Shown: one piece after another, positions 50,481-50,616 of the stretch
Layout of the letters: each line of letters opens with the position of its first letter
How positions within the stretch are numbered: the stretch's first letter is position 1
Source of the DNA: Melaminivora suipulveris
GTDB taxonomy: Bacteria > Pseudomonadota > Gammaproteobacteria > Burkholderiales > Burkholderiaceae_C
Reading direction: 5' to 3'
DNA length: 64,000 bases
NCBI RefSeq assembly: GCF_003008575.1
Contig: NZ_CP027667.1
Location: 1,554,501-1,618,500 of the forward strand
Made by a program: the position numbers and the translations under genes
Notes under the pieces: model-generated
The model's database searches: none
What the model was told of the DNA's origin: nothing
The model's input: the letters and a program-made list of their open reading frames with translations, nothing else

Positions 50481-50506
50481 AAAAAAGAAGCCCGGCGCAG
50501 CCGGGC
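50481..50506 (-). terminator. Terminator of the candidate sRNA, in the hemJ leader
   Basis: A perfect 7-bp GC stem (GCCCGGC/GCCGGGC), 3-nt loop and a U-rich tract on the minus strand, 12 nt before the hemJ ATG. It could also attenuate hemJ. Confidence 0.75.
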
Positions 50507-50582
50507 GGGAAAAGCCTCCTGGGCACGAATGCCGCCGGAAGCCCCGCTCAGGGAGGTAAAGCGGGGGGCGCTCGCGCGCCCG
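50481..50582 (-). ncRNA. Candidate small RNA with anti-Shine-Dalgarno loop
   Basis: Minus-strand transcript of about 100 nt read from the sequence. The promoter is TTGCGC (50611–50616), 16 bp, CTAGAT (50589–50594). Then GGCGC-GCGA-GCGCC (a GNRA-capped hairpin), then CCCCGCU-UUACCUCCCUG-AGCGGGG with an exposed ACCUCCC loop complementary to Shine-Dalgarno sequences. Next is a stretch containing AGGAGG, which could pair back to the loop, and a canonical terminator GCCCGGC-UGC-GCCGGGC plus UUCUUUUUU at 50481–50506. No ORF fits. I recall a Rfam family, 'Betaproteobacteria toxic small RNA', with such an anti-SD motif; this resemblance could not be checked. Confidence 0.62.
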
Positions 50583-50588
50583 GCGGCA

Positions 50589-50616
50589 ATCTAGCACCGC
50601 CCCGCGGCAGGCGCAA
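50589..50616 (-). promoter_or_regulatory. Promoter of the candidate sRNA
   Basis: TTGCGC-N16-CTAGAT on the minus strand, ending 6 nt before the first hairpin. Confidence 0.5.

Follow-up and report, generated by a model that had tools for sequence, protein, structure and literature searches.

An anti-hemB family small RNA between hemJ and hemB of Melaminivora suipulveris, and its possible kinship with sX13 and ErsA

What is encoded between the divergent genes hemJ and hemB of Melaminivora suipulveris, and what might its product do? The window analysed here is a stretch of 64,000 nucleotides. In its hemJ–hemB gap the initial annotation had placed a compact unit of about 100 nt on the minus strand, a probable small RNA whose anti-Shine-Dalgarno (anti-SD) loop is exposed. 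Its dimensions hold: the gap measures 195 bases from the hemJ ATG (50468, minus) to the hemB ATG (50664, plus), and the transcript that we infer is 100 nt long. The RNA gene runs divergently from hemB without overlapping it, and its U-run ends only 12 bases before the hemJ ATG.

Locus and family assignment

The features of the locus are as follows.

50040..50468, minus: hemJ, an open frame; gene name as in the initial annotation
50664..51671, plus: hemB, an open frame divergent from the RNA; gene name from the same source
50611..50616, minus: -35-like element TTGCGC, read in the sequence, with 3 of 6 consensus bases
50588..50593, minus: -10-like element TAGATT, 17 bases past the -35, with 4 of 6 consensus bases
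50581, minus: putative transcription start, from the seventh base past the -10 and analogy with the published 105-nt length of ncS04
50566..50581, minus: hairpin P1, loop GCGA, from the fold and from pairing conserved across loci; absent from the Rfam model
50543..50565, minus: hairpin P2, which displays the anti-SD-like loop, from the RF02837 match, the fold and compensatory pairs
50550..50556, minus: P2 loop core CCUCCCU, unpaired at 0.95–1.0, with conservation of each base at 90% or more across 49 loci
50514..50542, minus: hairpin P3, GCUUCC...GGAGGC, from the RF02837 match and the fold; contains AGGAGG (50515–50520)
50490..50506, minus: terminator stem, followed by the U-run UUCUUUUUU to 50481, from the RF02837 match and a terminator scan
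50482..50567, minus: match to RF02837 anti-hemB, 51.5 bits, model positions 1–81 of 81

An Rfam scan of the 64-kb window at curated cut-offs returned one family only, RF02837 anti-hemB, matched at full length with a score 2 bits above the gathering cut-off of 49.5, a small margin, and an E-value of 4.3e-9. The Infernal comparison with Rfam that the initial annotation had suggested thus yields a named family. When the search was confined to 701 bases (50200–50900), the E-value was 4.7e-11, and a permissive scan of the same interval added only a sub-threshold microRNA family (E 1.3). At E ≤0.001 this is the single RF02837 match in the genome, and divergent hemB, the context that gave the family its name, is present beside it. 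The window RNA belongs to RF02837 and is an ordinary member of it. The name anti-hemB reportedly stems from a 2007 comparative-genomics paper.

A different family had been suggested at first, the 'Betaproteobacteria toxic small RNA' (RF02278), and that identification fails: the permissive scan of 50200–50900, taken to E 10, gave no match to its model. The genome does carry one RF02278 copy over cut-off elsewhere (locus L031, G000:C1:1046488-1046552, 57 bits). Our own model R1, described below, matched neither this copy nor the weaker L032–L034 up to E 10.

Fold, conservation, promoters and neighbourhood

Starting at 50581, the 100-nt RNA is predicted to form four serial hairpins (P1, P2, P3 and the terminator) at -55.3 kcal/mol, and is more stable than its shuffles (z -2.6; 4 of 300 equally stable); a 110-nt transcript from 50590 gives z -2.5, with 2 of 200 shuffles equally stable. 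Three elements named by the initial annotation reappear in this fold: the GNRA-capped hairpin GGGCGC-GCGA-GCGCCC, the hairpin showing the loop UACCUCCCU, and the terminator, with its stem at 50506–50490. The P2 loop is the main exposed element that the four predicted hairpins leave. The terminator alone is no better than chance, as the scan found one in the window against 0.7 expected; the whole element stands above chance because of the RF02837 E-value and the covariation in relatives described below. A fold-back of AGGAGG on the loop, also proposed earlier, is not borne out. It is predicted at 0.0, and AGGAGG instead lies within the 3' arm of hairpin P3, where pairing at 0.98 is predicted for five of the six bases. 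By eye, this place mostly reads AAGG in the 49 aligned loci. A long stem enclosing P1 and P2 (start 50589/50590), whose conservation was judged by eye only, was rejected because the RNA would then begin inside the -10 element.

Of 60 relatives, 50 have an RF02837 match at E ≤0.001 and 47 have one over cut-off; the E threshold also admits matches in 3 of the 14 control genomes, although none of these exceeds the cut-off and no control matches at 1e-6. The loop CCUCCCUGA is nearly invariant across loci, and the block CCTCCCTGA, whose positions are either invariant or conserved to 90% or more, is the best-conserved segment of the 49 aligned loci. The stems covary, with compensatory changes on both sides. 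In P2, 98.8% of cells in the loci alignment are paired, and double-sided changes occur at 3 of 5 pairs and in 10 cells (values reached by 1 and 0 of 500 shuffles, respectively). For the four-hairpin structure, in 31 sequences taken partly from other Burkholderiales and partly from non-Burkholderiales, double changes affect 23 of 27 pairs and 131 cells against a shuffled mean of 50.9, and this covariation falls when the structure is slid along the alignment. A P1 of at least 6 bp is present in 58 of 73 loci, compared with 19% when arms are swapped between loci and 10% after shuffling. This covarying 5' hairpin is an addition to the Rfam model, which lacks it.

All Burkholderiales counts leave out L044, L053 and L055–L060 (second copies or paralogues); P1, promoter and loop counts leave out L076 (the window again) and L077, L078 and L082 (loop word not found), and P1 counts also L061. 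Loci from genome searches are best matches only. Among the paralogues, L058, L059 and L060 are near-identical and carry two CCTCCCTGA words in one RNA; they come from G002 and G001, which belong to the same genus, and from G020, a further member of the window's family. Another genome of that family, G755, has five R1 matches. The anti-hemB word also occurs in a record titled Klebsiella pneumoniae MAG (L126), possibly a mislabelled bin.

The window's taxonomic family (f1) differs from the other loci in loops and promoters. At least one C-rich loop beyond P2 is predicted in 3 of 31 f1 loci, compared with 16 of 19 other Burkholderiales and 22 of 24 non-Burkholderiales loci; for at least two such loops the counts are 1/31, 4/19 and 10/24. 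As judged from these folds, further C-rich loops appear to be mostly lost in f1.

The promoter proposed in the initial annotation, TTGCGC-17-TAGATT, stands in part. It has only 7 of 12 consensus bases and is unlisted by the strict scan, yet the pair TTG-N16..18-TAnnnT occupies its place in 19 of 31 f1 loci, against 0.6% in shuffled sequence. In a fixed band, the sigma-70-like pair was found in those 19 of 31 f1 loci, 2 of 18 other Burkholderiales loci and none of 24 outside the order. A sigma-E-like pair, AAC-N15..19-TCnnA/T, shows the reverse: none of 31 in f1, 16 of 18, 17 of 24, and 56 of 80 named loci, a loose count that includes doubtful loci, since by eye the -10 position of the named Burkholderia/Paraburkholderia loci has GGTATATSATA. 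The background from shuffling was 0.6–3.3%; the bands were chosen after a first promoter survey had been seen, and L045, at a contig end, was left out. A stricter, earlier sigma-E score gave 15 of 19 other Burkholderiales, 14 of 24 non-Burkholderiales, 29 of 80 named and 1 of 31 f1 loci. By their sequence, then, candidate sigma-E-like promoters precede the RNA in most other loci and in none of the window's family (0/31).

Divergent hemB lies upstream in 44 of 49 Burkholderiales loci (at L018, L047 and L054, 0.7–1 kb away), and hemB lies upstream in 47 of 59 loci taken from R1 matches, which are partly the same places. In 27 of the 31 f1 loci the RNA is followed by a hemJ of the same orientation. 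The Rfam match ends 14–34 bases before the hemJ ATG in five genomes of genus g1, and 14–170 bases before it in the 26 loci with same-strand hemJ. In the 19 other Burkholderiales loci the downstream side gave no hemJ match; 16 of them have a convergent engB there, and the remaining 3 (L004, L039 and L048) have engB upstream in the orientation of the RNA. Outside Burkholderiales, 21 of the 27 best-scoring loci have polA upstream in the same orientation, a convergent engB downstream, or both. Neither was seen at L066, L070, L078, L079, L082 and L086, some of which are truncated. Both genes were found by tblastn, the PolA fragment of L064 and the EngB-like frame of L045 being named by eye. Tandem arrays of two to four RNA copies occur at L094, L066, L070 and L085.

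Proposed function and its alternatives

A homologue, the 105-nt ncS04 of Burkholderia cenocepacia, is expressed: its start was mapped, its 3' end was determined by RACE and it was detected by Northern blotting (PMC5688073). The same report cites Hfq binding and tabulates an unchanged ncS04 level in seven conditions, membrane stress not among them (PMC5688073). Together with the RF02837 match and the compensatory stem changes, this expressed homologue supports the central proposal of the initial annotation, a small RNA with an exposed anti-SD loop. When the 105 nt are placed on the locus of B. cenocepacia NCTC13227, which we take to be J2315, so that they end in the U-run, they begin at most 1–2 bases from the P1-like 5' arm, by eye.

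We favour, with a probability of roughly 0.75, the reading that the window encodes a separately transcribed, trans-acting anti-hemB sRNA of about 100 nt, whose P2 loop would pair with the G-rich Shine-Dalgarno regions of a set of mRNAs and lower their translation. In this host, transcription would start near 50581 from the RNA's own promoter and end at the terminator U-run. P1, with its GNRA cap, P2, P3 and the terminator would fold serially, leaving the P2 loop UACCUCCCU exposed to pair with GGGAGG-type Shine-Dalgarno regions. Such pairing would reduce translation of those mRNAs, as it does for the C-rich loops of sX13, for which loop motifs and G-rich target motifs are both described as required for repression (PMC3771888). 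Repression is the most likely action of the window RNA, the sX13 mechanism being carried over by analogy because the window RNA keeps only one C-rich loop.

Target searches found none. Sites of the form CAGGGAGG-N3..9-RTG numbered 10 in the window's genome against 5 for the reversed control, and 6 of the 10 gave open frames of at least 40 aa, with no coherent gene set among them. For hfq, an sX13 target, as a shared target, only GGAG-type start regions were seen at six loci with clear starts, none from the window's family, which lends the idea no support; this is a weak test, in which 24 loci were fetched and 10 rows examined, four of them with a doubtful start.

Could the RNA be mainly the 5' leader or attenuator of hemJ, such that a stop at the terminator releases the sRNA as a by-product or second product and read-through expresses hemJ? 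In the window, the 12 bases between U-run and ATG leave no room for a separate hemJ promoter past the terminator, and the strict scan lists no promoter nearby. That scan, however, misses the RNA's own proposed promoter too, and the 19 other Burkholderiales loci that have engB instead of hemJ make leading hemJ unlikely as an ancestral role. We therefore regard this possibility as unlikely overall. The Rfam name would suggest a cis-antisense regulator of hemB, as would divergent hemB at 44 of the 49 Burkholderiales loci, yet the RNA points away from hemB, so that overlap would need a hemB mRNA starting far upstream, and outside the order the usual neighbours are polA and/or engB (the 21 of 27 loci above). 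Such antisense action seems highly improbable.

The P2 loop also resembles the anti-SD of 16S rRNA, and on that ground the partner of the RNA might be a protein or the ribosome instead of mRNAs, the RNA acting as a sponge or a 16S anti-SD mimic. Since the sX13 precedent is repression that needs G-rich mRNA motifs (PMC3771888), we give this little credence. In favour of membership of RF02278, the RNAs of that family likewise carry unpaired CU-rich segments with complementarity to ribosome-binding sites, and overexpression of its member ncS27 is reported to slow growth (PMC5688073). S17 of B. pertussis, similar to RF02278, shares such segments and reportedly does not impair exponential growth of E. 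coli (one of PMC3521395, PMC10987360, PMC11722255 and PMC7011215). RF02278 is nevertheless a separate Rfam family of double hairpins, and the missing match at the locus, the 57-bit copy elsewhere in the genome and the failure of R1 to find that copy leave this identity with next to no probability.

Wider kinship and comparison with known RNAs

The anti-hemB family is already known from Rfam; the interesting part is its wider kinship. Rfam gives no clan for anti-hemB, sX13 or ErsA, and our literature search found no paper linking anti-hemB/RF02837, sX13 and ErsA/Pseudomon-1 with one another. The authors of sX13 described homologues only in Xanthomonadaceae and raised the question of comparable RNAs at other polA loci (PMC3771888).

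Within the class, RF02837 matches 94 of 369 genomes at E ≤1e-6 and 21 of 369 over cut-off, and none of 14 controls. Our model R1 was built from 31 sequences (alignment A3; A1 and A2, in which hairpin 3 is misaligned, were unused). It excludes members of f1 and any locus that the sX13 or ErsA models had found, though its training rows include L087 and L089. R1 matches the window RNA at 50482–50584 (41.5 bits, E 5.6e-9). Over 31 sources (173 kb) it also matched three sX13 loci (E 8e-5 to 1.8e-4) and one ersA locus (E 1.5e-4), and all 33 of its matches up to E 10 fell at places that had scored with Rfam before or that bear the anti-hemB word. In whole-genome searches at E ≤1e-4, R1 had matches in 110 of 150 genomes of the order; across the phylum it matched 29 of 398, every one of them a member of the class. 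It had no match in G221 (ersA) or G071 (sX13).

Several loci score with both sides, at values below the Rfam cut-offs. L087 reaches 47.7 bits with anti-hemB and 39.5 with sX13, and L089 47.3 and 37.9. The four tandem copies of L094 (genome G230), between polA and engB, include one that scores best with sX13 (48.3 bits) and three with anti-hemB (41.8, 39.6 and 37.8). L301 has 40.1 bits with sX13 and 44.8 with R1, and only 24.1 with anti-hemB. On the ErsA side, one anti-hemB-type copy of L094 also matches RF01719 Pseudomon-1/ErsA (37.1 bits, E 3.2e-4), and R1 gives a weak cross-score at L096 (24.9 bits) and also matches L309. The R1 match is ersA itself in G887; in G662, G807 and G830 it is another locus, away from polA and engB and free of any Rfam match at E 0.1. 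R1 matches of this kind in three genomes of the ersA-bearing family are L304, L306 and L307; by eye, sigma-E-like words lie upstream of them.

Other C-rich families cross-match as well: the first copy of L094 matches ar14 (38.0 bits, E 4.2e-4), and the sX13 locus L092 matches Atu_C7 (E 1.2e-4) and ar14 (E 0.0061). These families may be kin or merely C-rich. Spot 42 (L095), which R1 did not match up to E 10, was rejected as a sequence relative; with E. coli K-12 reading polA - Spot 42 - yihA, its resemblance is one of position only.

Sequence cross-scores thus support an old lineage shared by the window RNA and sX13, and perhaps by ErsA. We lean, at slightly better than even odds, towards anti-hemB, sX13 and probably ErsA being one ancient RNA gene that ancestrally lay in the polA–engB interval and had C-rich anti-SD-like loops as well as an envelope-stress promoter of the sigma-E type. 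It would have moved beside hemB in Burkholderiales; in the window's family it would then have gained a housekeeping-type promoter, lost the further loops and come to lie directly before hemJ, turning a stress-regulon RNA into a differently controlled regulator, maybe also a hemJ leader. The odds are set lower because the cross-matches of other C-rich families, ar14 and Atu_C7, are of roughly the same strength as those of ErsA. If there is one lineage, knowledge of sX13 and ErsA yields testable predictions for an RNA that R1 finds in most genomes of the order, and the altered promoter type and lost loops would offer a natural experiment in the rewiring of a regulatory RNA. Beyond Rfam, the additional elements are P1, the link to polA/engB and sX13, the promoter contrast, the loop loss in f1 and the 12-base gap to hemJ.

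Among known systems, ncS04/RF02837 shares with the window RNA a score over cut-off, divergent hemB, the loop CCUCCCUGA and the terminator. The window RNA differs in having hemJ, not engB, downstream on the same strand, a sigma-70-like promoter, and no C-rich loop in P3 or the terminator. Spot 42 (RF00021, E. coli) shares only the order polA - RNA - engB (yihA) with the kin of the window RNA. Like the window RNA, sX13 (RF02232, Xanthomonadaceae) has hairpins with C-rich loops, and it adjoins polA, as the kin of the window RNA adjoin polA/engB; L087, L089 and L094 score with both models and L301 with sX13 and R1. It is unlike the window RNA in that RF02232 matches neither the locus up to E 10 nor the genome at E 1e-5, and in having three C-rich loops rather than one and polA as neighbour, where the window RNA lies between hemB and hemJ. 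Repression by sX13 through G-rich motifs is described as independent of Hfq (PMC3771888), whereas ncS04 is cited as binding Hfq. ErsA (RF01719) has no anti-SD P2 hairpin that we could see by eye; with the kin of the window RNA it shares C-rich hairpins, weak cross-scores and the polA–engB place. It is described as requiring Hfq for several targets and as depending on the envelope-stress factor sigma-22 (PMC8575079), a dependence that resembles the sigma-E-like promoters of many of those kin.
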